From: Oligella ureolytica DSM 18253
GTDB lineage: Bacteria; Pseudomonadota; Gammaproteobacteria; Burkholderiales; Burkholderiaceae_B
NCBI RefSeq assembly: GCF_000373745.1
Contig: NZ_KB892335.1
Coordinates: 154-64,153, forward strand
DNA: 64,000 bases
Direction of reading: 5' to 3'
Below are positions 3,404 to 53,350 of this stretch, one piece after another. Position numbers and translations under genes: made by a program. Each line of letters starts with the position of its first letter. Position 1 is the first letter of the stretch. The notes under the pieces were generated by a model. That model was given only the letters and a program-made list of their open reading frames with translations, was not told where the DNA came from and searched no databases.

Positions 3404-4327
3404 CTATTTTTCTTCAATTATCTTTTCTACTAACTTCAACGCTTTTTGATTATAGCGCCATTCAACCGCTGTCACTGCAATACCGCTGCCACACACGATT
3501 AAAATACCGACCCACGCCCAGACATCAGGAAATTGCCCCCAAATTGCAAATCCTAGCGCTGCTGCCGCAATAATTTGAAAATAACTAAACGGTGCAAGCA
3601 AAGAAGCAGGCGCATGTTGATACGCTCTTATTTGTAATAAATGCCCTAACGTACCAAATAATCCCACGTTAATTAAAAGCAACCATTGCCACAAGCTGAA
3701 ATCCCTCAAGGCGGCCATGCTTTCGTCCCAGTGAAAAGGCATTAACACGATACCGCCAAGTAAACCGACAATACCGGTCCACAGTAACGTAGTTTGTGAA
3801 TCGTCAGCAGCCAACTTTTTGGTATAGATAAACTGCATGGCAATCGTAAAAGCCGCTAACAAGGCATAAGCCACGCCAACGGGGTCTAAGCCCGCCCCGG
3901 GCCGCACTATCAATAAAACGCCCATGAAGCCAACCACAGCCGCAACCCAGCGATGTAAACGAGAGGCCTCACCCAGAAACCAAGGAGCAGCACACAGCAC
4001 GAGTAAAGGTGCTAAGAAATAAATAGCCGTTGCTTCTGCTTGAGGTAAATAGGACAACGCCGTAAAAATAGCCAGGGTCGTGACCATCGTGGTAAGACCG
4101 CGAATAACTTGCGTTTTATAACTTGTGCTATGAAAAATAGCTAAACCTTTGCTAGGCAAGGTAATCGCCAGCACCAACACCACATGCACAGCAAATCTAA
4201 AAAACAGCAGACAAAAAAGAGGCAAGCTGATTTGCATTAACCACTTACCGCTTGCCTCCTGAACTGATAGTGCCCATGTCGATAAAACGAGCAGGGCAAT
4301 ACCAAGAAAAATTTTATAGTGACTCAT
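3404..4327 (-). CDS. EamA/DMT-family transporter
   Basis: A 307-residue integral membrane protein with about ten hydrophobic helices in two EamA repeats (about 5-140 and 150-290). Each repeat shows the family pattern of an aromatic/small-residue helix followed by LLLIVRPG (about 137-144) and the C-terminal LLAPFSYFQIIAAAALG. It resembles RhtA/YdcZ-type exporters of amino acids or other metabolites; the substrate cannot be told from sequence. Its start follows the upstream GH31 gene by 3 bases, so the two are translationally linked. The pairing suggests a common physiological task, possibly sugar-related, but this is inference. Confidence 0.85.
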   Translation of the reverse strand: MSHYKIFLGIALLVLSTWALSVQEASGKWLMQISLPLFCLLFFRFAVHVVLVLAITLPSKGLAIFHSTSYKTQVIRGLTTMVTTLAIFTALSYLPQAEATAIYFLAPLLVLCAAPWFLGEASRLHRWVAAVVGFMGVLLIVRPGAGLDPVGVAYALLAAFTIAMQFIYTKKLAADDSQTTLLWTGIVGLLGGIVLMPFHWDESMAALRDFSLWQWLLLINVGLFGTLGHLLQIRAYQHAPASLLAPFSYFQIIAAAALGFAIWGQFPDVWAWVGILIVCGSGIAVTAVEWRYNQKALKLVEKIIEEK

Positions 4328-14300: not shown

Positions 14301-15284
14301 TCACTCTTGACTAAGAAGTTTTAGTGTATCTAATAAAGAACCGCCGGCAGGGGCTTGGATATCAGACAAATCCTTGCCCAGCACGAGCATCGGATCAATC
14401 GGTACACTATCAAGTCGCACTTCAAAATGCAAATGGGCGCCGGTAGAGTTGCCTGTGTTGCCTACACGAGCAATCATTTGGCGACGGCTGACGATATCAC
14501 CTGCTTCGACTAAGTTTTCGCTATTGTGAGCATAGACCGTGGTCACTCCTGCGCCATGGTCTATTTCGATCAAATAGCCATAGCCATTAACATAGCCGGC
14601 ACTACTGACTACACCATTGCTGGCGGCATAAATAGGTGTACCCTTTGGGGCAGCAAAGTCCAAGCCGGCATGCAATCTTGACGTTCTGGTGATAGGATGA
14701 AGGCGCCATCCAAAAGGCGAAGACATACGCGCCTGCAGCATTGATACCGGTATACCGGTAGGTACTCGGTCTAAATCAATTTTACGACTCTGCATCAATA
14801 CATCTAAAGCCCGTATGCGATTTTCTTGTTGGTATAGTCTCTGTTTTAATAAATCGAGTTCTTTACCGATTTTTTCACCGGAAAAACCAACCTCATCGAC
14901 AAACTCCTCCATGGGTTGATCGTGTTCACCCAAGTTAGGCTGTGTAAAGGTGTTGGTTTCTACACCAAGATTAAAGGATGAATTATGACTGATTCGTTCT
15001 GTTATCTGAGTGATATTGTCTAAAGTAATCTTAGCTTCAGCTAATTGTTGAGCAAACTGACCCAGACTATGCTCGATCAAATTCTGTTGGGCCGGATTTT
15101 GAGGTAAACTATTCGGATTCCTTGGCGAGCCGCTCTGGTTATTATCATGGTGATAACCATAATGCCGCTCCAACAAAGCACCGGACACTAGGGCGATACA
15201 CACACACAACACGGTAATACTAAAAGACCAAACTTTTTGTGTCTTCTGTCTCGCTCGCCGCGGTGATACAAATTTTTTAGCCAA
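14301..15284 (-). CDS. M23-family (LytM) metallopeptidase, inner-membrane anchored
   Basis: 327 residues. A basic N-terminus and one membrane anchor (about 18-37) are followed by a periplasmic linker with coiled-coil tendency (about 135-165) and a LytM domain (about 188-300). The zinc ligands are present: HAGLDF (H205, D209) and HLHFEV near 281. It should therefore be an active DD-endopeptidase or amidase-like peptidoglycan hydrolase rather than a degenerate activator. Its start lies only 15 bases from the divergent dciA start, so the two promoters must overlap. Position near secA/lpxC is typical of Burkholderiales; the individual gene name is not certain. Confidence 0.88.
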   Translation of the reverse strand: MAKKFVSPRRARQKTQKVWSFSITVLCVCIALVSGALLERHYGYHHDNNQSGSPRNPNSLPQNPAQQNLIEHSLGQFAQQLAEAKITLDNITQITERISHNSSFNLGVETNTFTQPNLGEHDQPMEEFVDEVGFSGEKIGKELDLLKQRLYQQENRIRALDVLMQSRKIDLDRVPTGIPVSMLQARMSSPFGWRLHPITRTSRLHAGLDFAAPKGTPIYAASNGVVSSAGYVNGYGYLIEIDHGAGVTTVYAHNSENLVEAGDIVSRRQMIARVGNTGNSTGAHLHFEVRLDSVPIDPMLVLGKDLSDIQAPAGGSLLDTLKLLSQE

Positions 15285-33772: not shown

Positions 33773-34204
33773 TTATAGAGAAAAATCACCCAGATCGTCG
33801 GGCAGACCGGCCTCTAAATCTATAGAGACTAATTCCTCATACTTCTGGGAATCCCATAGATCAAAATGACGACCCATACCGACCAACACCACCTCTTTTT
33901 CCAACTTAGCTCGTTCACGGAGCTGAGATGGAATTAAGACTCGTCCTGCTTTATCAATATCCACATCAAAAGCGTTACCCAGAAGGGTTCTTTTTACCGA
34001 AGCAAGGTTAGCGGGTAGATTCATAATCTCTTCCAGTTTTAATTCCCATTGAGGCCTGGGGTAGACCAATAAACCACCATCAAAATTACAAGTAAAGGTT
34101 AGCTGACCTCCGACTTCCTCCAATAAGACGTCACGATACCGGGCCGGAATCATCATCCGTCCTTTTACGTCGATCGTTAATGGATGGTTGCCTTGAAAAA
34201 TCAC
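33773..34204 (-). CDS. mraZ: Transcriptional regulator MraZ
   Basis: 143 residues with two SpoVT/AbrB-like half domains. The first has DVKGRMMIPARYRDVL (about 12-27) and the second DKAGRVLIPSQLRERA (about 85-100). MraZ forms ring-shaped oligomers and represses its own dcw operon by binding repeated TGGG-type boxes upstream. The start codon is GTG (34202-34204), with a GGGATAGGATA ribosome site partly formed by the nearest box. First gene of the dcw cluster. Confidence 0.96.
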   Translation of the reverse strand: MIFQGNHPLTIDVKGRMMIPARYRDVLLEEVGGQLTFTCNFDGGLLVYPRPQWELKLEEIMNLPANLASVKRTLLGNAFDVDIDKAGRVLIPSQLRERAKLEKEVVLVGMGRHFDLWDSQKYEELVSIDLEAGLPDDLGDFSL

Positions 34205-34540
34205 TATCCTATCCCACTTGTCATTTTAATTTCCCACTTTATACCACTTCTTAACCCTTTCACACCACTTTATGACATTTTTCATTAAATTTCAAGCAAA
34301 ATCATGCTTTTACAGCTAAAAATAAAGCCTGTACATGCAGGTATTATTTAATTAAATCTCAATCACTTAGAGAAAAAAGTGCGAGTAAGTGGTATACGAG
34401 GCACAAAAACCCCTAGCTCCAACCATTCAAAGTGGGAGCAAAGTGTATTTTCAAAGAAGAAAATGGAGAAATTTCAGACTAAAAAATCAAAGGAGTGGGA
34501 ATAGTGAAAAATGTACACTTAAATCGATATAAAGAAATGT
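34205..34540. promoter_or_regulatory. dcw operon control region with MraZ-type boxes on both strands
   Basis: This 336-base AT-rich gap between rnpB and mraZ has no gene. On the minus strand four AAGTGG(G/T) boxes lie at 34213-34219, 34233-34239, 34243-34249 and 34264-34270. Their spacing of 20, 10 and 21 bases is whole helical turns. The nearest overlaps the mraZ ribosome site region. MraZ is known to bind tandem TGGGN repeats on one face of DNA. Three similar boxes in the opposite orientation occur at 34387-34393, 34430-34436 and 34493-34499 (43 and 63 bases apart, again near multiples of 10.5). The promoter itself was not pinned down. Confidence 0.6.
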
Positions 34541-34930
34541 GGGGCAAGTCTATAGGCCGGATTCTGTAAACGATTACTCGTTGGCAATCATTCATCTAGG
34601 CTTATTATTGCTAATAAGCTCGTGCCATCTACCCGCATACTCGGACGGACCGCCCTTGGCTGCATGATGCAGCACGTATGCCTATTTGATGTTGCTCCGG
34701 GTAGAGGTTACCGCGTTTCACCCTGCTATGCCGTGGTCAAGTACCGAAATACATTGCCACAACCAATGGAAGTCGCCATTGGTGTGCTTAGTAAACTAAG
34801 CCCTCATAACAGTCTCGTCTCTGTGGCCCTATTCCTCATGCCGATGGCATGGACGGCTGTTAGCCGCTACCCTGTCCTGTGGAGTCCGGACCTTCCTCGT
34901 GCCTAAGCCCGCGATTGCCCGACTTGCCCC
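34541..34930 (-). ncRNA. rnpB: RNase P RNA, bacterial type A
   Basis: 390 nt on the minus strand. The 5' GGGGCAAGTC and 3' GACTTGCCCC ends form a perfect 10-bp P1 helix. The conserved core is present: GAGGAAGGTCCGGACTCCA near the 5' end, ACAGGGTAGCGGCTAAC, and the 3' CCTAGATGAATGATTG block before CAGAATCCGGCCTATAGAC. It is the catalytic RNA that matures tRNA 5' ends. Apparent open frames on the opposite strand here are incidental. Confidence 0.96.
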
Positions 34931-35041
34931 ATAGATTAGAGTTTAACCCATCAACAAAAGTTCAGATCATATTGCGTCAATTTTTAATAATTTTGGGGAA
35001 AATTTAGGCGGCTGTATTTGTTCTGAATTGAATCCTATGAT

Positions 35042-36253
35042 TTAGTGGCAAATACTATTGGTGCTGCCCATACGCAAGGCCGCCCCCTTGATCACACCGT
35101 GAATTAACAATGGCTTTAACTCGACCCTACGGCGGATATCATAACGTAACACCTGTGGCTCACCCTCTTCGAGAGTAACATAGAGTGTTTTGCTATCGCC
35201 TGTTACCCACATATCTACAACCCCTGAAGGTAATTCAAAGAACACCTTATCATTTAAATCATTAAATGACTGGAACTGCAAGCCCCTATCACCCCCGATA
35301 ATCAAGGTCGTCTCTAACCAACCCGTACGGAACTCTCGAGGCGTAAAATCCACCTTAAAGTGCTCAGCCTTTTCACTCTTATCGAAATCAAATAAGGCCA
35401 CATTGCCATTGCTATCAGCAAATAGAACGCGTTTAAACGATGAATCAATATAAGGCCTGACCATTGAACCACTAGTCGAGTCTACGGTACCCATGGGCCC
35501 CGTGCTATATAGCTTGTCCTGATCAATATAATAAACATAGCCCTCGTTACCTTGTTTGGTTGTTAGGGCCATCATGTGGTCACCTGGCGTAATCACCCCG
35601 CCATCAAAGCCAGCACTTAAATTGACACTAGCGCGCGCTGACAAATCAATGGTTTGCCATGGCTTATCATCAGATTCATAAGCAGATTTACGATAGATCT
35701 GTGCCTTATTTTCGTCTAATACCCAAAAGGTTCGAGTATAAGAACTAAATAAAACTTTGGGCTCTTGTTTGCTATCTTTATCTTGTGCGCTAATAGCAGG
35801 CGGTTCATCATATGTAGTTAATTGACGTTTTTGGTAATCAAGCATTGCCACATGATCGCGCAAGACAATCGCCACTAATTTAGATTGCGGTACATACACT
35901 GCCCTATAAAGAGGTGAAGGTAGCTCCATATCACGGCGTAAACTCGTTTTTAAATCATATAAAATCAAATCGGTAGATTCGCTATTACCTACCAACATCA
36001 TTGAGTCGTCACGAGCAAGCTCAATGGTTTCTGGTTGCACATTGAAATTTAAAATATCAATGTGCTTATCGTACATCACGTTGAAAATAGTGATTTGAGA
36101 CGACTCACTATCAGCAATAAAGAGATGGCGAGTCGGATTATAAAGATGCGGGTTATAAAGGGGTTGCTCTTTGTTTGCAGCAAGAAGCAACTGCGGTTGA
36201 GCCAGAACTAAACCACCACCAATCGAGTAGCGTAAAAAATCTCGCCTTTTCAC
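35042..36253 (-). CDS. Tat-exported beta-propeller protein of the copper-delivery operon, function unknown
   Basis: 403 residues from a GTG start at 36253, chosen because GGGGG lies 8 bases upstream and the protein then begins directly with a twin-arginine signal (KRRDFLRYS, hydrophobic stretch, cleavage near LLLAANK). The mature part is strand-rich with repeated short segments (HLFIADSESSQITIF, SKTLYVTLEEGEPQVLRYD) like a seven-bladed YVTN/WD-type propeller. No catalytic motif is recognised. Tat export implies folding, or perhaps cofactor loading, before export. It is the last gene of a three-gene operon with a PCuAC chaperone and a SCO-TlpA protein, directly abutting the chaperone gene. A role in copper handling is inferred from context only. 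Confidence 0.6.
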   Translation of the reverse strand: MKRRDFLRYSIGGGLVLAQPQLLLAANKEQPLYNPHLYNPTRHLFIADSESSQITIFNVMYDKHIDILNFNVQPETIELARDDSMMLVGNSESTDLILYDLKTSLRRDMELPSPLYRAVYVPQSKLVAIVLRDHVAMLDYQKRQLTTYDEPPAISAQDKDSKQEPKVLFSSYTRTFWVLDENKAQIYRKSAYESDDKPWQTIDLSARASVNLSAGFDGGVITPGDHMMALTTKQGNEGYVYYIDQDKLYSTGPMGTVDSTSGSMVRPYIDSSFKRVLFADSNGNVALFDFDKSEKAEHFKVDFTPREFRTGWLETTLIIGGDRGLQFQSFNDLNDKVFFELPSGVVDMWVTGDSKTLYVTLEEGEPQVLRYDIRRRVELKPLLIHGVIKGAALRMGSTNSICH

Positions 36254-36292
36254 AATCAATACCCCCTTATAACTACAATTTACAAATGCCAA

Positions 36293-36781
36293 TTAATGTT
36301 GATGAGCCATATCAGCCGTTCCAGCCTTACCAGCTTCTTGCATAATCTCATCGACTGACTTCACAATAGCATCACAACTGGCTTTGGTACCATCGCTAAA
36401 GTTAAATGTCATGGTGTGTGTTTCGCCAACCTTAGGCATTTTATCCTCAGGAATACTCATAACCATGACATGATCACCACCTTTTTTAAACTCCCTAACA
36501 CCTTCATTAAGCTCAGGGCTAGTCAAGGGGATCATGGTCATAACATTATCTTTCATCTCCATTGAGTGCAACTCAATGTGCGTCGTAATGCTGGGAATCT
36601 CGGCTGACTCGATATTAACCTGCGGTCCCTTGTGATGGAATGTCACAAAAGCGCCTGTCATGTCCTTACCCGGTAAAACCTCTTGAATCACACAATTATC
36701 AACGGTGGTAGTTGATTCCTCTGCAACAGCAGTTTGAGTTAACGCCATAAATATGGCGCTTAAAATTAAAGCTTTCCTCAT
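36293..36781 (-). CDS. Periplasmic copper chaperone PCu(A)C
   Basis: 162 residues. A signal peptide (1-20, ending ..TAVAEE) precedes a DUF461/PCuAC cupredoxin-like domain. The copper ligands fit the H-x-M...H-x-M pattern: IELHSMEMKDNVMTM followed about 25 residues later by GGDHVMVM. The C-terminus adds a cysteine (SCDAI) and a histidine-bearing tail (MAHQH), longer than in minimal family members. Such chaperones pass Cu(I) to the CuA site or SCO proteins of cytochrome oxidase. The open frame reaches 36814; the ATG at 36781 is chosen for its AAGGAAGA ribosome site and the signal peptide. It directly abuts both neighbours. Confidence 0.85.
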   Translation of the reverse strand: MRKALILSAIFMALTQTAVAEESTTTVDNCVIQEVLPGKDMTGAFVTFHHKGPQVNIESAEIPSITTHIELHSMEMKDNVMTMIPLTSPELNEGVREFKKGGDHVMVMSIPEDKMPKVGETHTMTFNFSDGTKASCDAIVKSVDEIMQEAGKAGTADMAHQH

Positions 36782-36814
36782 ACTTCTTCCTTTTTGTAAA
36801 AAGTGCCGAGCCAT

Positions 36815-37906
36815 TTAATGTAAAACACATTGAGCAAAACGACCTAGCGTTTCGGTCTCTTGAATGATACCGTTTTTAAGGGCTACTGCCTTACCATCAA
36901 CAAATAACATATTGAATGGCAAGCCCATACCGCCTAAACGGCGTAAGAGCATAGCATCATCTGTACTTTGTTGAGTTAAGTGCTGAATAGCCTGAATTTT
37001 AAAAAACTCGGCAATCTTATCTTTCTGATCGCCTAGGTTGAGAGCAACAACCGACATCTTATCTTGCTCGGTCGCAAACTTATCTAACAATGGCAATTCT
37101 ACGCGGCAAGGCTCACACCAGATAGCCCATAAATTCAATAGGCTCACTTTTGCCTCAGGAGCAGAATCGACTACTGCGGCTAAATCATGGGGCTCTTTGA
37201 CCGGCACAAAGCCCGTTGGTAATTCGCAGTCTGTAGTTATCGTAGTAGCAGCACTCGCAGCCTCAGCAGTAGCGACATGGGACTCCGCTTGTACCGCTGC
37301 CACCTCATCTCGGTCGTGAGACTCAGCCCCTGACTCTGAATCGGGAACGCCTAAGACCTCATCTAAAGCCTCAACCAATCCATCCACGCCGATTTGATAA
37401 TCATATACATCAAGAATTTCACGCTCAGGATCAATTAAATAAATATAAGCGCTGTGATAAACCGCATAAGACATTCCAGGCTCAGGATCCTCAATAGGCT
37501 TGCCGTTAAGGCTATAGCCATAAGTGGCCCCAATTTGATCAGCAAGATGTTTAATATTTTCTTTAGGACCTGTTAAACCCACAATGCGCTTATCAAAGAA
37601 AGCCGTATAAGCATTTAAACGATTAACCTCATCACTAGCTGGGTCAATGGTTACGAACACTGGCTGAATGGCATCTGGATTTTTAATCGCTTTCATTGCT
37701 GCCCCGAACTCATATAAGGTCGTTGGGCAAATATCAGGACAAGAGGTATAGCCAACCGCTAAGAGCAAGTATTTACCTGGGTAACTCTCTTGAGTCACTG
37801 GCCCTTTATTATCTATTAAGTCAAAGTTAATGGTTTGCGCATAGAGGGATCCACTAAACAACATTAAGAAGCAAAGTAATAACTTGCTGAACATTCTTTT
37901 TATCAT
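36815..37906 (-). CDS. SCO1/SenC copper metallochaperone fused to a TlpA-type thioredoxin domain
   Basis: 363 residues. After a signal peptide (1-23) comes a SCO domain (about 24-190) with copper ligands C-P-D-I-C (in YTSCPDICPTT) and the downstream histidine in YAVYHSAYIYLID. An A/E-rich linker (about 193-225) leads to a second thioredoxin fold (about 225-363) with the redox motif WAIWCEPCRVELP. Separate SCO and TlpA proteins cooperate in reducing and metallating the CuA centre of cytochrome oxidase; here they form one chain. It is first in the operon with the PCuAC chaperone and the Tat propeller protein. All expected ligands are present, so both halves should work. Confidence 0.88.
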   Translation of the reverse strand: MIKRMFSKLLLCFLMLFSGSLYAQTINFDLIDNKGPVTQESYPGKYLLLAVGYTSCPDICPTTLYEFGAAMKAIKNPDAIQPVFVTIDPASDEVNRLNAYTAFFDKRIVGLTGPKENIKHLADQIGATYGYSLNGKPIEDPEPGMSYAVYHSAYIYLIDPEREILDVYDYQIGVDGLVEALDEVLGVPDSESGAESHDRDEVAAVQAESHVATAEAASAATTITTDCELPTGFVPVKEPHDLAAVVDSAPEAKVSLLNLWAIWCEPCRVELPLLDKFATEQDKMSVVALNLGDQKDKIAEFFKIQAIQHLTQQSTDDAMLLRRLGGMGLPFNMLFVDGKAVALKNGIIQETETLGRFAQCVLH

Positions 37907-38218
37907 CTGAAAACTTCCTTAATCATTTAAGCTACCCGCTACTAAAATAATTGTGACTCGCTAAATAAAACGTCTCTATATTAGCATCTTAGTATATAAG
38001 CAATAAGCACCACACTCACTTTGACCTTACAGAATATAACAATCACATCTCATCATAACAATAAAGATGCATTTAATATACAACAATATGAGCAAATAAT
38101 AAACCATTAATAACTAAAACGCTAAGCGCTACCTTAATTGACTTATCACCTAGAAATCACACTTACTATATAATATTGGCATATTAACATTATTAATTTA
38201 CTATTTTTATCTTCTTAT
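37907..38218. promoter_or_regulatory. AT-rich divergent promoter region between the copper operon and uup
   Basis: 312 bases without a gene, flanked by divergent starts. Strongly A/T-rich. A TATAAT at 38169-38174 and a TTGACT at 38138-38143 lie before uup, but their spacing (25) is too long for one promoter. No clear copper-responsive operator or hairpin was seen. Confidence 0.35.
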
Positions 38219-40045
38219 ATGTCCGGACAAGCTCTTATTTCTCTTCTGAAAGTCAGTCTTTCTTACGGTCACCACGCACTCTTAGATAAGGCCGATCTTA
38301 TTATTGCTGAGGGTGAGCGCATTGGTTTGATTGGGCGTAATGGTGCAGGTAAATCATCTTTGCTACGCCTACTAGACGGCCGCACTGAACCCGATGATGG
38401 TGAAATTCAGCTTAAGGGCGGTCTTAAAGTGATCACGGTAGAGCAAGAGCCCGACTTAGATCCAGAGCTCACTATTTTAGATAGTATTACGGGCGATTAT
38501 TTATCCACTGAGGATTGGGCTAAGCCCGCTCGCGCCCAAGCCATTATTGATGAATTAGGCCTAGATCCTGAGGCCAAGGTTAAGGGCCTATCAGGCGGCA
38601 CCCGCAAACGCATCGCCTTAGCTCGCGCCTTTGTGGAAAATGCCGATTTGCTTTTATTAGACGAACCCACCAACCACCTCGACTTTGAAGGTATTGCTTG
38701 GTTAGAAGAGCAGGTAAAACAAAGTAATAAAACCTGCATGATTATTACCCACGATCGTCGATTCCTAGACAATGTCACTAATCGCATTGTCGAATTAGAT
38801 CGGGGCCAATTACTTAGCTTCCCTGGTAACTTCAGTCGCTGGCAAGAGCATAAGGCCGAGTGGCTTGCCGCCGAAGCTAAAGAGCAAGAGCGTTTCGATA
38901 AATTCCTTGCCCAAGAGGAGGTGTGGATTCGCACTGGCATCCAAGCCCGCCGTACGCGTAACGAGGGCCGTGTACGTCGACTCAAAGCCTTGAGGGTTGA
39001 GCGTCAACAACGCCGCGAACAACAAGGCAATGTGAGCTTCGCTATTGATACTGGCAATCGTTCGGGCAAAATAGTGGCTGAGCTAGAAAACATTTCTCAT
39101 CGCTTTGGTGATAAAGAGGTAATTAGGGACTACAGCACCACTATTTTACGTGGTGACCGCATTGGCCTAATTGGTCCTAATGGCGTTGGTAAGACCACTC
39201 TATTAAAAATCATCTTAGGCCGCTTAGAGCCTAATGAAGGCACAGTCAAATTAGGCACCAACTTAAATATCGCATACTTCGATCAAATGCGTGAGCAGCT
39301 TGATGAAGATGCCAAACTGACCGAGGTAATTAATCCTGGTAGTGAGTGGATTGAGATTGGCGATAAGCGTCAGCACGTGATGAGTTATCTTGGTGATTTT
39401 TTATTCTCACCAGCACGCGCTCAATCGCCTGTCAGCAGTCTATCGGGTGGTGAACGCGCCCGTCTTTTAATGGCACGTTTATTTGCTCGTCCTGCTAATG
39501 TCTTAGTTATGGACGAACCGACTAACGACTTAGATATTGAAACTCTTGAGCTATTAGAGGAGCTAATTCAAGACTTCAAAGGCACTGTGCTTTTAGTGAG
39601 TCACGACCGAAGCTTCTTAGATAATGTAGTCACCCAAACCATCGCTTACGAAGGTGATGCCACATGGCGCGACTATGTCGGCGGCTATGAGGATTGGCTT
39701 GAGCAAAGCGCCAAAAATAAGCCCAAAGAAAAGGCTCCAGCTGAACCTCAGAAAACCAAAACAGAAGCCTCTGAAAGCAAAGCTACAGAAGAGCAAAAAC
39801 CACGTACACCACGTAGCAATCGTATCAGCCCATGGGAACAAAAAGAATTAGACGAGTTACCAGAGAAAATCGCTGAACTCGAAACTAAGCAGGGGGCTCT
39901 TTCTGAGCAACTCAGCGATCCCGATACCTATGCCGATGGCTCAGATAAAGCACAAGAGATCCAAGACGAGCTCGAGAAACTGGCCAAGGAATTAGAGAAG
40001 CTATTTGAGCGCTGGGAATTTCTTGAGAGCAAGGATCCCCAATAA
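38219..40045 (+). CDS. uup: ABC-F ATPase Uup
   Basis: 608 residues with two ABC domains and no membrane part. First site: GRNGAGKSSLL, LSGGTRKRIALARA, LLLLDEPTNHLD. Second site: GPNGVGKTTLL, LSGGERARLLMARL, VLVMDEPTNDLD. The EQ2-type DEPTNHLDFE arrangement fits the ABC-F class. The C-terminal extension (about 500-608) is charged and ends in a coiled coil (from about 550), which distinguishes Uup from EttA and Ybit. ABC-F proteins act on ribosomes; Uup is also linked to transposon excision and to structured DNA. It converges with the O-methyltransferase gene across 9 bases, without an obvious terminator. Confidence 0.93.
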   Translation: MSGQALISLLKVSLSYGHHALLDKADLIIAEGERIGLIGRNGAGKSSLLRLLDGRTEPDDGEIQLKGGLKVITVEQEPDLDPELTILDSITGDYLSTEDWAKPARAQAIIDELGLDPEAKVKGLSGGTRKRIALARAFVENADLLLLDEPTNHLDFEGIAWLEEQVKQSNKTCMIITHDRRFLDNVTNRIVELDRGQLLSFPGNFSRWQEHKAEWLAAEAKEQERFDKFLAQEEVWIRTGIQARRTRNEGRVRRLKALRVERQQRREQQGNVSFAIDTGNRSGKIVAELENISHRFGDKEVIRDYSTTILRGDRIGLIGPNGVGKTTLLKIILGRLEPNEGTVKLGTNLNIAYFDQMREQLDEDAKLTEVINPGSEWIEIGDKRQHVMSYLGDFLFSPARAQSPVSSLSGGERARLLMARLFARPANVLVMDEPTNDLDIETLELLEELIQDFKGTVLLVSHDRSFLDNVVTQTIAYEGDATWRDYVGGYEDWLEQSAKNKPKEKAPAEPQKTKTEASESKATEEQKPRTPRSNRISPWEQKELDELPEKIAELETKQGALSEQLSDPDTYADGSDKAQEIQDELEKLAKELEKLFERWEFLESKDPQ

Positions 40046-40054
40046 GCTCATTAA

Positions 40055-40750
40055 CTACTTAACAATGGCCATTGAAAAACCATCCCAGCTTTTGGCGCCA
40101 ACGGTTTGAATCGCCGTAGCGTCAAGCTGAGGATGATTGCGCATCATCTCAAAGAAGGTCTTTAGACCCTTAATATTAGCGCCTTTAGGATTTTCTTCGA
40201 GAATCTTGCCATGACGCACCACATTATCACCAATGATAACCGTGCCTGGACGCGATAATTTTAAGCACAGCTCCAAATAGCTCGGGTTATTACCCTTATC
40301 TGCGTCAATAAAAATAAAGTCAAAAGGCTCTACCCCATCAGCAATCAGTTGCTCCATGCTTTCAACTGCTGCACCTTGAATCACCTCAATCTTATGGCTC
40401 ATACCTGCAAACTCAATATTGTCGCGAGCGATAGCAACGTGCTTTTCATCAAAATCTAAGGTAATGCATTGACCATCCTCGGGTAGGGCCGAGGCCATCC
40501 AGATGGTACTATAAGCCGCTAGCGTGCCTATTTCTAAAACTCTTTTTGCTCCCATCATCTGCACCAAGAACTTTAAAAACTTACCCTGTGCAGGGGATAC
40601 ATGAATTAAGGGAATAGGATGTTGGCTACAACGCTCTAATACCTCGGCAAATAGCTTATCTTCGGTTAATAAATGATCATAGATATAGTCATCGACCTCT
40701 GCGGCCTGGTGCAAATCGACGATACTTTTACTACCTGAACCAATCGCCAC
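40055..40750 (-). CDS. SAM-dependent O-methyltransferase, family 3 (CCoAOMT-like)
   Basis: 231 residues. Motifs: RVLEIGTLAAYSTIWMA (SAM loop, less glycine-rich than usual), CITLDFDEKHVAIARDN (acidic residue binding SAM ribose), and FDFIFIDADKGNNPSYLE (metal-binding aspartates of the caffeoyl-CoA/catechol OMT class). The substrate is unknown; bacterial members methylate varied catechols. It follows pyrC by 14 bases on the same strand, so they may be co-transcribed. Confidence 0.88.
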   Translation of the reverse strand: MAIGSGSKSIVDLHQAAEVDDYIYDHLLTEDKLFAEVLERCSQHPIPLIHVSPAQGKFLKFLVQMMGAKRVLEIGTLAAYSTIWMASALPEDGQCITLDFDEKHVAIARDNIEFAGMSHKIEVIQGAAVESMEQLIADGVEPFDFIFIDADKGNNPSYLELCLKLSRPGTVIIGDNVVRHGKILEENPKGANIKGLKTFFEMMRNHPQLDATAIQTVGAKSWDGFSMAIVK

Positions 40751-40764
40751 GTTTTTACTCCAAA

Positions 40765-41844
40765 TTATGCTTCAAGCTGCCAATTCAGAGTAGTACCTGC
40801 AGCCAAAGGCACTAAGGTGCCACCATTAACAAAAGGCAACTCCTCTGGAATATTGAAAGCTTGTCGTTTTAATGTAATGGTTTCTGTATTTCTAGGTAGA
40901 TTATAGAAATCTGGTCCATAAAAGCTAGTAAAACCCTCTAAACGATCAAGTTTACCTACACTCTCAAAGGCCTGAGCATATAACTCTAAGGCATGGAAAG
41001 CCGAATAACAACCAGCACAGCCACAAGTTTGCTCCTTAAGTGAGCGAGCATGTGGCGCACTATCAGTTCCCATAAAGAAACGTGGTGAACCGCTGGTAGC
41101 TGCTTCAATCAACGCCTCACGGTGAACCTCGCGCTTTAAAACGGGCAAGCAGTAATAATGCGGCTGCAAACCATTGGTGAAAATAGCATTACGGTTATAG
41201 AGTAAGTGTTGTGGCGTAATCGTCGCCGCCACTGGACCCTCGGCATCACGCACATAATGGGCACCCTCTTTGGTTGTGATATGCTCAAAAACAACCTTAA
41301 GCTCAGGAAAAAGCTGGCGTAGCGGCAACATCACACGGTCAATAAAGACCGCCTCACGATCAAACACGTCAATCTCAGGATCAGTTACTTCACCATGCAC
41401 TAAAAGTGGCATACCCACCTGTTGCATTTGCTCTAACACCTCTGAGCAGTGGCCTAATAAATCGGTTACACCCGCATCAGAGTTAGTCGTGGCACCAGCC
41501 GGATAAAGTTTAACTGCATGCACCACTTCAGACGCTTTAGCCTTTATAATCTCTTCTGGGGATGTGTTATCAGTTAAATACAGAGTCATTAATGGCTCAA
41601 AACCCAATAGCGACGAGTCTGCCTTGGCCGCAGCCGAGCCTTTTAGTGCATCTAAAATACGTTGGCGATATGCCAATGCTTGCTCTGTAGTGCTTACAGG
41701 CGGCACTAAGTTTGGCATAATAATGGCTCGCTTAACCTGCTTAGCAGTATCTGCCACCACATGACTTAAGGCCTCACCATCTCTTAGGTGTAGGTGCCAG
41801 TCATCTGGCTGGATTAAGGTGATTTTATCCTCTGTAATTTGCAT
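40765..41844 (-). CDS. pyrC: Dihydroorotase PyrC
   Basis: 359 residues, class II dihydroorotase. Metal and substrate residues: DDWHLHLRDG (His pair), the carboxylated lysine in VKLYPAGATTNS, PLLVHGEVTD, HITTKEG, and GTDSAPHA near the end. It closes carbamoyl-aspartate to dihydroorotate in pyrimidine synthesis. The 41845-42013 gap to the divergent SWIB gene is AT-rich. Confidence 0.96.
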   Translation of the reverse strand: MQITEDKITLIQPDDWHLHLRDGEALSHVVADTAKQVKRAIIMPNLVPPVSTTEQALAYRQRILDALKGSAAAKADSSLLGFEPLMTLYLTDNTSPEEIIKAKASEVVHAVKLYPAGATTNSDAGVTDLLGHCSEVLEQMQQVGMPLLVHGEVTDPEIDVFDREAVFIDRVMLPLRQLFPELKVVFEHITTKEGAHYVRDAEGPVAATITPQHLLYNRNAIFTNGLQPHYYCLPVLKREVHREALIEAATSGSPRFFMGTDSAPHARSLKEQTCGCAGCYSAFHALELYAQAFESVGKLDRLEGFTSFYGPDFYNLPRNTETITLKRQAFNIPEELPFVNGGTLVPLAAGTTLNWQLEA

Positions 41845-42013
41845 AATATTTCCTAATCAAAAAAGCTCATATCTACATTTGTCGCCATTTTAACTGTTAA
41901 TGCGACTTTTAAAAAATTTAAACACTTAATACCGTACAATATCACGCTTTACGGAAAAGGCTACCGCCATAAGCGGAGTTTTGCCTTTGAAAAATTTAAA
42001 AAAGAGAAAATTT

Positions 42014-42288
42014 ATGACCACCAAAAAACAGCTAACAAAACCAATGCTGCTTTTATGAAACCTGTTGTACCTAGCGCTGAATTAGCGATTATCGTAGGTA
42101 CCGAACCTTTACCACGCACAGAAGTAACTAAAAAGATGTGGGAATACATCAAGGCCAACGACTTACAAGATCCTATCGATCGTCGTAACATTAATGTCGA
42201 TGATAAACTGCGCCCTATCTTTGGTAAAGATCAGGTTAATATGTTCGAAATGACTGAAATAGTCAGTCAACACCTGAGCTCTAACTAA
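42014..42288 (+). CDS. SWIB/MDM2-domain protein, 5' end out of frame (single-base frameshift in an A tract)
   Basis: The SWIB domain (from ATG 42055, 77 codons) is typical: PLPRTEVTKKMWEYIKAND, DPIDRRNINVDDKLRPIFG and a C-terminal MFEMTEIVSQHL. In relatives an alanine/lysine-rich leader precedes the MKP at its start. Here that leader is present but in another frame: ATG 42014 with a GAGAAA ribosome site reads MTTKKQLT then stops, while the other frame reads TANKTNAAFMKP into the domain. One extra A in the A6 run at 42023-42028, or a -1 ribosomal slip on it, would join them. It could be a sequencing error, phase-variable tract or frameshifted gene. Start at 42055 would give a domain-only protein. 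panD follows in 21 bases. Confidence 0.75.
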
Positions 42289-42309
42289 TTTATTTTACAA
42301 GAGAAATTT

Positions 42310-42693
42310 ATGATGCGTATCATGATGAACAGCAAGATTCACCGCGCTGTGGTGACTGAAGCTGATTTGAACTATATTGGTTCAGTAACTATTGACGGCG
42401 ATATAATGGATGCTGTCGGTTTATTGGCCAATGAAAAAGTCGCCATTGTCAACAACAACAACGGTGCTCGCCTCGAAACGTATGTTATTGAAGGCAAGCG
42501 CGGCAGTGGTGTCATCTGTTTAAACGGCGCGGCAGCTCGTTTAGTGCAAAAAGGTGATGTGGTTATCATCATGTCTTATGTCTTCTTGACCAATGAAGAA
42601 GCACAAAATCACCGTCCCAAAGTAGCGATTATGAATCCGGACAATACGATTCAAGAAGTTCTGAATTACGAAGAAGAAGCAACCATTAGGTAG
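42310..42693 (+). CDS. panD: Aspartate 1-decarboxylase PanD
   Basis: 127 residues. The self-cleavage site Gly-Ser that yields the pyruvoyl cofactor is in [10 protein letters not shown] (Ser at about residue 26). [33 protein letters not shown] and [10 protein letters not shown] follow. It makes beta-alanine for pantothenate and CoA. The N-terminus has two extra residues (MMR) before the usual start; ATG 42313 is an equal alternative. It probably shares a transcript with the SWIB gene. Confidence 0.97.
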
Positions 42694-43980: not shown

Positions 43981-44619
43981 TTATTCGACCGCGTATAAGA
44001 ACAACTCCACTCGGCGATTCATACGACGACCTTCAGCCGTGTCATTAGAAGCGATTGGGTCATTAGCCGCACGACCTTCAACGGTCATACGAGAATGAGC
44101 AACGCCCTGACTTGCTAAGTAATTAGTCACAGCAGAAGCGCGGTTGTTTGATAGTGGCTGGTTAATAGAGACCGAACCGGTACTATCCGTGTGCCCGACT
44201 GATTTAACACGCAATTGCTGATGCGACTGCATCTCAGCCGCTACCTGGTTAAGCACCGGGTATAATGCAGGCTTCAAATCATACTTACCGGTATCAAAGG
44301 TAGCGCCCTCCGGAATAAGAACTTTTAGACTGCCATCAGGCATTTGAGTCGTTGTAATTCCCAACTCCTGACCGCCGGCATCGTTAATATTACCGCGTAG
44401 ACGATCCCAGTTATAACCAACAATACCGCCGGCTACCGCACCAATACCTGCGCCAATACCGGCAGATTTGGAACTATCACCAATAAGAGCGCCTAAACCG
44501 GCTCCCAATGCTGCACCAATACCTGCGCCTGTTGCTGTTTGACCACCCTGAGTGGCACAACCTGCAGCCAAGGTCGCTGCCAACACTATACCACCTAAAC
44601 GTACTGATTTGATTTTCAT
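43981..44619 (-). CDS. OmpA-like outer-membrane lipoprotein, YiaD type
   Basis: 212 residues. The lipoprotein signal has LAAGC with lipidated Cys21. A glycine-zipper region (about 30-70, GxxxG repeats such as GAGIGAALGAGLGALIG) is followed by an OmpA-C peptidoglycan-binding domain (about 105-212) with FDTGKYDLKPALYP, VGHTDSTGS and NNRASAVTNYL. It anchors the outer membrane to murein. A TAGGAGAA ribosome site lies before the start. The zipper resembles YiaD/Pal-type proteins with DUF4398-like cores. Confidence 0.9.
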   Translation of the reverse strand: MKIKSVRLGGIVLAATLAAGCATQGGQTATGAGIGAALGAGLGALIGDSSKSAGIGAGIGAVAGGIVGYNWDRLRGNINDAGGQELGITTTQMPDGSLKVLIPEGATFDTGKYDLKPALYPVLNQVAAEMQSHQQLRVKSVGHTDSTGSVSINQPLSNNRASAVTNYLASQGVAHSRMTVEGRAANDPIASNDTAEGRRMNRRVELFLYAVE

Positions 44620-44823
44620 AAGATTTCTCCTAGTCTAATGAAGAATTGCCCAACAAAAACGCATGGACTGAAATTACCCCTTCCGGTAGCTTCTTAATAG
44701 TAACAAAACGATTCATATTATCAAAGCTTAAAGCATTTAATATTAAGCAATTGTAACTAGATAAATCGTTTTTAGCGCGATTGCTAACTTGACGCCATCC
44801 ATCCAAATGAGCTGACTGCCTTG

Positions 44824-46248
44824 TCATTTGACTTGTCTAGCGGCTTTAGACACCAATACAAAGATAAAAGGCAATATAGCAAAACTGCCTAATAGCGTTG
44901 CTGCAGCAGACTGAGTCCCGGCTAAATCGCCATCATTAAAACCGGCCGCTGCAACCAGCATACCACCCAAGGCCGTACCGAGTGATACGGCATATAGTTG
45001 TACCGTTGTAATGGCGCTGGTTGTTTGGTTTTCTTGACCCTTATCTGCAGCAATTAACACACGGGACAAAATATGTGGCCATGACATCCCTACCCCTATG
45101 CCAATACCCAGCAAAGGAAAAATCATCGCCCAAGCCGCATGATGCTCTGCACTTAAGCCCTGCCACGGCATTAATAAAGCAAGCAGGAAGAGACTCATGC
45201 CGGATATCATTGGACTGACAATCATCAGCTTATTCACCGTTTGAGTCGACCTACCTGCAGTGGACAAAGAACCTACCGTCCAGCCGGCAGACATCATCGC
45301 AGCCATATAACCGGCAACCAGGGGACGCAGGCCATGAATATTTTCCAGGAAATATGGTATAAATACCTCAGTAGTGACTCCCATACTTAACAGCACGACC
45401 CCTGAAAACAGGGCTCCAATCGGGTGCTTCAAAGAATACATTCCGGTAGGCAATAATGGGTTATTACTTTTTAAGTCACTCTTGGCAATACCATATAAAA
45501 TCAGGGCGACGCCTCCTAACGAAGCGATTCGCAACAGCCAAGAATCCCCTAAACTACCAAGCGATAACACAATCACTGAAAAACTTAAGAAGAGAACTTT
45601 TACTAAAGGCACCTCACTTTTTTGAGCCGCATTGTTTGCGTCAGTACGCTGTGACACTTGAGTAAATACCAGAAAAGCCACGATTAAGGCGACCGGAACG
45701 GTAGACCAAAGTGCCATTCGCCAAGCACCATGCTCAGCAAAAAGACCGCCAATAGCAGGACCTGTCAGCGTCGACACTCCCCACATCGTCGAAATAAGAG
45801 CCATTGCCCGTGACCATAAATGCGGTGCAAAAACTAAGCGCACAGACGCATAACTCAGTCCCAGCATGACCCCGCCACCTAAGCCCTGAATGGCTCGACC
45901 AAACAATAGAACAGGCATTGAAGGCGCCATCGCCGATGCCATCGATCCAAGAACAAACACAAAAATACCGAGCAAATAGGCCGAACGCAAACCGAATTGC
46001 TCAAGCAAACGCGCTGATGAGGTTGAACCGATAATAGATGCAGCCACAAAAATCGAGGTAATCCAAGCGTAGTAATTAATACCACCGATATCCCTAACGA
46101 CGGAGGGCATAATCGTGGTTACGATATACACATTAATCGCATGAACAGCTACCCCTCCGCAGAGAGCAATGGTCCGCAAGCCATTTTTACCGCTAAGGAG
46201 TTCACCCCAACCACCTGAATTGGCGAGGGTAGATATATTTTTTGACAT
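44824..46248 (-). CDS. MFS transporter, DHA2-like drug efflux type
   Basis: 474 residues, about 14 predicted membrane segments. First-half signatures: NVYIVTTIMPSVVRDIGG (proton-antiport motif D1-like), RLLEQFGLRSAYLLGI (motif A), GRAIQGLGGGVMLG (motif B) and WGVSTLTGPAIGGLFAEHGAWR (motif C, antiporter). This is the pattern of multidrug or small-molecule exporters; the substrate is unknown. It stands 112 bases from the ABC ATPase gene upstream. Confidence 0.88.
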   Translation of the reverse strand: MSKNISTLANSGGWGELLSGKNGLRTIALCGGVAVHAINVYIVTTIMPSVVRDIGGINYYAWITSIFVAASIIGSTSSARLLEQFGLRSAYLLGIFVFVLGSMASAMAPSMPVLLFGRAIQGLGGGVMLGLSYASVRLVFAPHLWSRAMALISTMWGVSTLTGPAIGGLFAEHGAWRMALWSTVPVALIVAFLVFTQVSQRTDANNAAQKSEVPLVKVLFLSFSVIVLSLGSLGDSWLLRIASLGGVALILYGIAKSDLKSNNPLLPTGMYSLKHPIGALFSGVVLLSMGVTTEVFIPYFLENIHGLRPLVAGYMAAMMSAGWTVGSLSTAGRSTQTVNKLMIVSPMISGMSLFLLALLMPWQGLSAEHHAAWAMIFPLLGIGIGVGMSWPHILSRVLIAADKGQENQTTSAITTVQLYAVSLGTALGGMLVAAAGFNDGDLAGTQSAAATLLGSFAILPFIFVLVSKAARQVK

Positions 46249-52873: not shown

Positions 52874-53109
52874 TACAAACCCTTATAAAATAAGCAAATT
52901 AGAACCGCACATTATAACTCAGGTGACACCACCAACAGACAAAGGGAAGCTCAGTTTGAAGGTTAATACGCTGCTAATTAAGCTGCACTAAAGCCAAAAG
53001 TTACTTTTGTCATGTTTTATACATTTTGTTGCTTTTTAACACCACTTTTCTAGACAGGCCCTATCAGGACAGTGGCTTTAGCTAGTCTAATCATCGAGTT
53101 TTGTTACAA

Positions 53110-53305
53110 TGCATAAATGATTGATGGGTGCTTACGACTATTAGAACCTACGTCTTTAGTTGCGTAAGTTAAATGGGAAACAGCATGCTCACACTCCACC
53201 CACTCCAATAGGACTGAGCAAAACTGTGCTGCCCCCGCAACGGTAATGAATAATTTGTCTCCTATCTCATTATTTAAGCCCGACACCAGCCTGCAATCTA
53301 CCTGA
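53110..53305 (+). promoter_or_regulatory. Cobalamin (AdoCbl/B12) riboswitch controlling btuB
   Basis: The leader before btuB carries the B12-riboswitch core. It has GGGTGC near the 5' end, AAATGGGAAACAGC (53172-53185), the long variable arm, GCTGCCCCCGCAACGGTAA (53228-53246), and the closing AAGCCCGACACCAGCCTGC (53276-53294). A -10-like TACAAT (53105-53110) lies at its 5' edge. When B12 is plentiful such leaders shut down receptor synthesis. The ribosome site (AGGA, 53341-53344) lies beyond a separate small hairpin (53319-53336). Confidence 0.88.
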
Positions 53306-53350
53306 TTTTTGTTTTAACATGTGCGGGGACGCACATTCACAGGACGTTCC

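Follow-up and report, generated by a model that had tools for sequence, protein, structure and literature searches.

We analysed 64,000 nucleotides of the Oligella ureolytica DSM 18253 genome (positions 154 to 64,153 of contig NZ_KB892335.1; the window) and found within them a tract of about 8 kb, core genes included, that has very probably (we put the probability at roughly 0.9) been imported by homologous recombination from a different species of Oligella, one that resembles genome G003 of our comparison set. A preliminary description of this DNA had noticed that the tetranucleotide CCGG is scarce there and had proposed that the stretch came by recombination from a relative whose CCGG history differed; nucleotide identity, breakpoints, gene trees and the CCGG deficit of G003 itself strongly support this proposal. 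The host genome (G000; 2,668,297 bases, draft in 98 contigs, completeness 100, contamination 1.73%; the window lies in contig C57) was compared with seven congeners (G001–G007, one genome per species). Completeness is 88% for G003, 87% for G006 and 99% for G007, and G004 supplied counts only (one 20-kb stretch) and is in no tree. Sixty further stretches of the host genome (1,125,202 bases; numbered with L) served as background.

The host and G003 are 93.3% identical inside the tract (7,724 aligned bases), compared with 76.8% outside 34.30–42.29 kb (26,154 bases). Identity to G006 moves in the opposite direction, from 82.4% outside to 75.0% inside, as does identity to G005 (79.7% to 76.9%), and the control pair G006–G003 is nearly constant (76.2% outside, 74.6% inside). 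All 31 steps of 250 bp between 34501 and 42250 are 86–98% identical to G003, two of them over only 118 and 128 aligned bases, whereas steps outside the tract between 30 and 50 kb are 61–89% identical. Gene by gene, the tract is 92–97% identical to G003 and 68–88% identical to other relatives where these can be aligned; in the flanking genes mraZ and panD, identity to G006 exceeds that to G003.

The sites that discriminate G003 from G006 change side within two short intervals (about 20 and 40 bases), and both edges lie in one contig. In the intergenic region between mraZ and rnpB, most of these sites match G006 as far as 34291, apart from a mixed stretch at 34225–34264, and most match G003 from 34313 on, which defines a left breakpoint at 34291–34313. 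At the other end, where a SWIB-domain open reading frame (ORF) finishes just 5′ of panD, the sequence is G003-like to 42255; clustered mismatches to G003 follow, and the discriminating sites at 42293–42318 are all G006-like (right breakpoint, 42255–42293). Taking approximate midpoints of these intervals as edges gives an imported tract at 34302–42270 (about 7.95 kb, 34.30–42.26 kb). The preliminary description had correctly ended the zone before panD, but had begun it behind rnpB (34.95 kb); the real edge is at about 34.30 kb, so that rnpB is included.

Maximum-likelihood trees, built from positions with a base in every named taxon, agree with these edges. In the comparison of gene trees that had been proposed at the outset, the host joins G003 inside the tract (uup–pyrC, 100% support) and joins G005/G006 in three sets of flanking genes (split support of 97, 100 and 100%; the third set is without G006). 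Moving the host alone reconciles the inside tree with the left and far-right trees. The host is therefore the taxon that changes place, and the tract shows the CCGG habit of G003.

That habit is what made the tract visible. Between 35041 and 41880 there are four CCGG, as first counted (36670, 37201, 38223 and 41499, previously given as 36667, 37201, 38222 and 41487), against 29.2 ± 9.5 per 6,840-base window in the host sample. A sliding-window count over sample and window together places the zone second-lowest for CCGG among 1,584 windows of that size; the sole lower place (C10:501, 40.7% GC) has no CCGG. The drop is independent of strand, because genes on both strands are affected. Other early counts held exactly (16 CCGG in 43981–45700, 9 in 14301–15284, and 11 CTGG/CCAG against 1 CCGG in uup) or nearly so (10 CTGG/CCAG in 43981–45700, where about eight had been given beside the 16 CCGG), and the GC content, first judged nearly alike, differs slightly (43.3% inside, 46.3% outside).

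Over the whole window, CCGG (277 occurrences) is the most over-represented tetramer, with an observed/expected ratio of 1.37, and CTGG/CCAG is among the rarest (0.72); CCGG is again the top tetramer in the host sample (1.39, with CTGG/CCAG at 0.75). Tetramer ratios and genome-wide synonymous totals use all 60 stretches. In 34301–42290, by contrast, CCGG is the most shifted of all tetramers in strand-symmetric counts (7 observed versus 38.5 expected). When runs in which CTGG/CCAG outweigh CCGG are scored, the zone reaches 14.2. The maximum scores of 200 label permutations stand at 11.1 at the 95th percentile and at 14.2 for the highest, so that the zone ties with the highest permuted score. It ranks fourth among 21 segments with a CTGG/CCAG excess (score >5) in the 1.17 Mb scanned (1,173,899 bases, window included, L023 excluded). 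Two of the three higher-scoring segments are on C12 and one is on C30; the main C12 block (52% GC) and the C30 segment (40%) are compositionally unusual, and the second C12 block (46%) is not.

The genetic code permits synonymous exchange between CCGG and CTGG/CCAG at the codon junctions NCY-GG and CCR-G (the hyphen marks the junction), which separates the tetramer from the encoded protein. The CCGG form is chosen at 4 of 31 such sites in the import and at 259 of 302 in the rest of the window (p=8e-17), and the import's choice is like that of G003 (79/436, p=0.63). By junction, the import has 1/11 at NCY-GG and 3/20 at CCR-G, and G003 has 45/227 and 34/209. Codon usage and GC content were rejected as causes, as five synonymous control contexts do not differ significantly between the import and its surroundings (NCY-GH p=1.0, NCY-H 0.48, CCR-H 0.062, DCR-G 0.89, DCR-H 0.40); the nearest to significance is CCR-H, with 11/27 inside and 113/187 outside. 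Without any import, selection, expression or codon usage could have removed CCGG from these genes; this alternative can be dismissed despite the presence of core genes and the slightly lower GC content, given those unchanged controls, the abrupt shift of identity and trees at the edges, and the CCGG that G006 and G007 each have at 9 sites where the window has CTGG/CCAG (the reverse occurs at 0).

CCGG is avoided in G003, whereas the host lineage favours it at synonymous C/T and G/A sites well beyond the level of control contexts, so that an import from a G003-like source appears as a CCGG hole. The tract is of G003-like descent and occupies the place of the resident sequence in unchanged gene order, its edges falling at the conserved mraZ/rnpB region and panD. 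We propose that a piece of such DNA was taken up, perhaps by transformation, and exchanged by RecA-type homologous recombination. The order from rnpB to panD is common to G001 and G007, and also to G002 and G003 as far as matches extend. No transposase or integrase occurs among the 10 proteins scanned between 35.0 and 46.2 kb, a scan in which edge repeats were not searched. Within the import, no CTGG/CCAG of G003 corresponds to CCGG in the host, and two sites differ the other way. The lack of any sign of amelioration points to a recent import or to a bias that no longer acts.

A chimeric assembly, in which a contig joins the host to a co-occurring G003-like strain without any biological import, is very improbable. 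G003 appears to be a metagenome assembly, the host draft is fragmented with some contamination, and the tract lies mid-contig, all of which would suit such a join. The window, however, contains no N, the host's completeness is given as 100, and the tract is 93% rather than about 100% identical to G003. The single full match to uup in the host also leaves no displaced resident copy, and no second pyrC occurs among five host matches of a 10-kb query.

Several observations weigh against import by homologous recombination or limit what can be said of it. The tree of the near-right flank also joins G003 with G007 (96%), so some tree differences are not due to the host. In two four-taxon trees the topology cannot reveal the conflict, but the branch leading to G003 has a length of 0.39 at 24.4–33.0 kb and of 0.06 at 34.3–37.9 kb. 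The aligned bases differ from G003 at 6.7%, so the actual donor is another genome, and the host species is represented by one strain. Gene searches of the congeners did not find the driver of the CCGG bias. Lastly, a third CCGG-poor block of the host that was compared (C9:5942–8810) has no close match in the seven congeners, which means that a CCGG hole by itself is no proof of congeneric import and can serve only as a lead.

The bias that makes imports stand out is not uniform across the genus: the host, G006 and G007 have raised CCGG, three species (G001, G002 and G005) are near neutral, and G003 has a deficit (observed/expected 0.62; 0.88 per kb over 111 kb). In the host sample, the CCGG form is chosen at 2174/2710 NCY-GG and 1896/2429 CCR-G junctions (0.80 and 0.78, symmetric on both strands), with control contexts at 3946/10792 (NCY-GH), 1664/3735 (CCR-H) and 3533/8800 (DCR-G). 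Outside ORFs the excess is weaker (490 CCGG and 806 CTGG/CCAG). In the per-context test, for which 8 of the 60 stretches were dropped as odd in composition or small (L016, L017, L020, L022, L024, L039, L040 and L041), the share of C at NCY-GG and NCY-GH is 0.82 and 0.35 in the host, 0.88 and 0.43 in G007 and 0.63 and 0.30 in G006. The difference shrinks to 0.10 in G005, 0.06 in G002 and 0.02 in G001, and is reversed in G003 (0.20 versus 0.38); G005 is thus near neutral at synonymous sites despite a tetramer ratio of 1.22. The 20-kb stretch of G004 has C at 12/26 NCY-GG and 87/145 NCY-GH. With other bases at the second codon position, the effect of the following GG is smaller, at most 0.20 (G007 with T).

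The exchange between CCGG and CTGG/CCAG suggested in the preliminary description is real. At CYGG, the host has C where the relative has T, and the reverse, in ratios of 35:2 (G003) and 32:0 (G005), compared with 0.5–2.6 and 0.9–3.8, respectively, for the 15 other NYGN contexts. Counts of CCGG in the host facing CTGG/CCAG in the relative, and the reverse, are 16:3 for G001, 17:3 for G002, 9:3 for G006 and 14:6 for G007. A longer motif around CCGG was rejected: NCY-GG takes C at 0.73–0.84 in the host whatever the outer base, and no longer word containing CCGG is prominent. Outgroup loci (Pelistega and others) are short and mixed (CCGG ratio 0.39 to 1.64) and give no consistent polarity for the CCGG state. 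The host excess would be consistent with a substitution or repair bias from CTGG/CCAG to CCGG that acts on both strands and requires a C before and GG after the variable base.

What drives this bias is a separate question. One answer, possible though short of even odds, is an unrecognised process independent of Vsr: another enzyme that corrects T/G mismatches, shielding of the cytosine in CCGG, or selection for the site. It would accommodate the strong preference for CYGG at synonymous sites seen in three species in which no Vsr was detected, and CCGG is likewise in excess in 41 Helicobacter genomes, a finding that its authors could not explain (PMC4687349). Against it, no candidate gene has emerged, and the absences in G006 and G003 are weak because these genomes are 87–88% complete. 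Three gene families were rejected as drivers. HhH-GPD glycosylases (three matches in each of seven genomes, two in G004) and UDG-family enzymes (one or two per genome in all) do not track the bias, and N4/N6 beta-class methylases (PF01555) exceed the cut-off in G007 only.

Very-short-patch repair by a C5 methyltransferase and Vsr leaves an excess of the C-containing site and a loss of its C-to-T variants on both strands. A classical system of this kind at CCGG, present now or until recently, is a rather doubtful source of the Oligella bias. The CCGG excess and the strand-symmetric loss of CTGG and CCAG at synonymous sites are what it would produce, and a truncated HhaI-like methyltransferase on C8 could be its fossil. 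This fragment (195 amino acids, L004:1179–1766) lies near IstB- and integrase-type ORFs, and, as it lacks the target-recognition part, its tblastn matches do not bear on specificity. Vsr (PF03852), on the other hand, was found in none of the eight Oligella genomes by a search that was positive in Escherichia coli, and the Vsr-like DUF559 occurs only in the near-neutral G005. C5 methyltransferases occur only in G000, G001 and G004, with none in the CCGG-rich G006 (87% complete) or G007 (99%), and the glycosylases and UDG-family enzymes do not follow the bias either. Neither half of the classical system tracks the CCGG excess, and the suggestion that CCGG methylation with Vsr-like repair was its cause is left unsupported.

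The intact C5 methyltransferase of the host, on C4, matches the PRK10458 (Dcm) model (713 bits, cut-off 710), which also argues against a CCGG-directed system; as judged from this family assignment and its MvaI_BcnI neighbour, its target is probably of CCWGG type. The Dcm-type gene and that of the MvaI/BcnI-type restriction enzyme are on opposite strands (L009:16847–18238 and L009:18425–19744). CCTGG/CCAGG is depleted in the host sample (0.70).

The Dcm/Vsr repair of E. coli (PMC12907096) shares with Oligella a site excess accompanied by loss of the T variants on both strands, but its site is CCWGG rather than CCGG, and in Oligella we found no Vsr homologue and, in two of three CCGG-rich species, no C5 methyltransferase. 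In Caulobacter, a DUF559 Vsr-like protein has been linked to methylation at YGCCGGCR (PMC12907096); in Oligella, DUF559 was found only in a near-neutral species. The Helicobacter excess is similar in size: the published ratios peak at about 1.4–1.5, compared with 1.34–1.39 here, and the authors stated that they saw no biologically reasonable explanation; there is no accepted cause (PMC4687349). As described there, the Helicobacter genomes carry annotated CCGG restriction–modification genes, none of which was identified in Oligella, and the section on over-represented sites includes no synonymous-site test (PMC4687349). The low ratio in G003 resembles avoidance of type II restriction sites as treated in the same study (PMC4687349), except that G003 (88% complete) has no match to PF00145 or PF01555, and hence no C5 methyltransferase was found, in a search that covered other methylase classes only partly.

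As a chromosomal replacement tract that keeps gene order and exchanges core genes, the Oligella import is like those of naturally transformable Helicobacter pylori. Imports by homologous recombination in that species have been described (PMC4917963). In Oligella, by contrast, the exchange is between separate species, about 77% identical in nucleotides, and one tetranucleotide in a single genome is enough to reveal it. A literature search found no closer published account. Core genes, including that of the catalytic RNA of RNase P, can thus be replaced between Oligella species at this distance, and one tetranucleotide can flag the event within a single genome. With three species in which CCGG is raised, three near neutral and one depressed, the genus offers a direct means of searching for the driver of the excess, a question that also bears on the unexplained excess in Helicobacter (PMC4687349). 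That several Oligella species share an unrecognised, Vsr-independent, CYGG-specific and genome-wide process converting CTGG/CCAG to CCGG, perhaps the same as in Helicobacter, which leaves a barcode of recombination between species, is an unlikely combination.

The tract begins, to the right of the resident mraZ (33773–34204, minus strand; 84% identical to G003, 92% to G006), with the RNase P RNA gene rnpB (34537–34930, minus), which is 97% identical to G003 and 85–88% to five other relatives and keeps 3 CCGG. The copper operon follows, all on the minus strand: a PCu(A)C copper chaperone (36293–36814; 94% to G003) and a 363-amino-acid fusion of an SCO1/SenC domain to a thioredoxin-like (TlpA/DsbE-like) domain (36815–37906; 92%), adjoined by a protein whose weak beta-propeller match lies below the cut-off (35042–36292; 92%). 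The matches flanking this operon are separated by about 350 bases in G005 and by about 1.5 kb in G006, the latter a shortened stretch that is alignable in part (62–75%); the import may therefore have brought or restored the full operon. Further DNA matches to the operon lie at G000:C4:27623–29619.

An ABC-F ATPase resembling Uup (38219–40045, plus) is 93% identical to G003 and 76–78% to five other relatives; its top NCBIfam model is Uup, at 729 bits, below the 900-bit cut-off. A plasmid origin of this gene was rejected: 16 records in a plasmid collection match it, covering ≤15% of the query at 69–74% identity. Beyond it are an O-methyltransferase (Methyltransf_3; 40055–40750, minus; 95% to G003 over 442 aligned bases, at a G003 contig break) and pyrC, encoding dihydroorotase (40765–41844, minus; 96% to G003, 75–77% to five other relatives). 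The SWIB-domain ORF (42055–42288, plus; 77 amino acids, PF02201) is 96% identical to G003 over 42016–42255. Its start is out of frame with a short open stretch upstream (41981–42058), where there is one gap position relative to G003, and a shortened N terminus is possible from the reading frames. The first resident gene on the right is panD (42310–42693, plus; 83% to G003, 87% to G006). Elsewhere in the window, a cobalamin riboswitch lies at 53109–53308.

Other parts of the host genome also depart from its CCGG norm. A second poor block (C8:38385–46559) has 17 CCGG and 64 CTGG/CCAG, and about 4.6 kb of it is 84–94% identical to G002, above the other relatives. Just beyond it, C8:47350–50879 is 99% identical to an entire 3,529-base contig of G002, a genome that differs from the host by about 22% in the window; this match could be a recent exchange or a misbinned G002 contig. 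The 7.9 kb at C10:448–8347 (1 CCGG, 27 CTGG/CCAG, 41% GC) are perhaps an acquired island. On C12, about 3160–37237 (L016 and L039; 52% GC), the CCGG share is below that of the rest and flagellar genes are present (the two ORFs scanned are FliF and FliG); foreign origin and contamination are alternatives. Two CRISPR-like arrays were seen in the host sample: one at L025:4691–8111 (C24), with 58 copies of an 18-base word that recurs every 60 bases as part of a longer repeat and resembles type I-F repeats, and one at L022:9292–10397, with 17 copies, which resembles type I-C.

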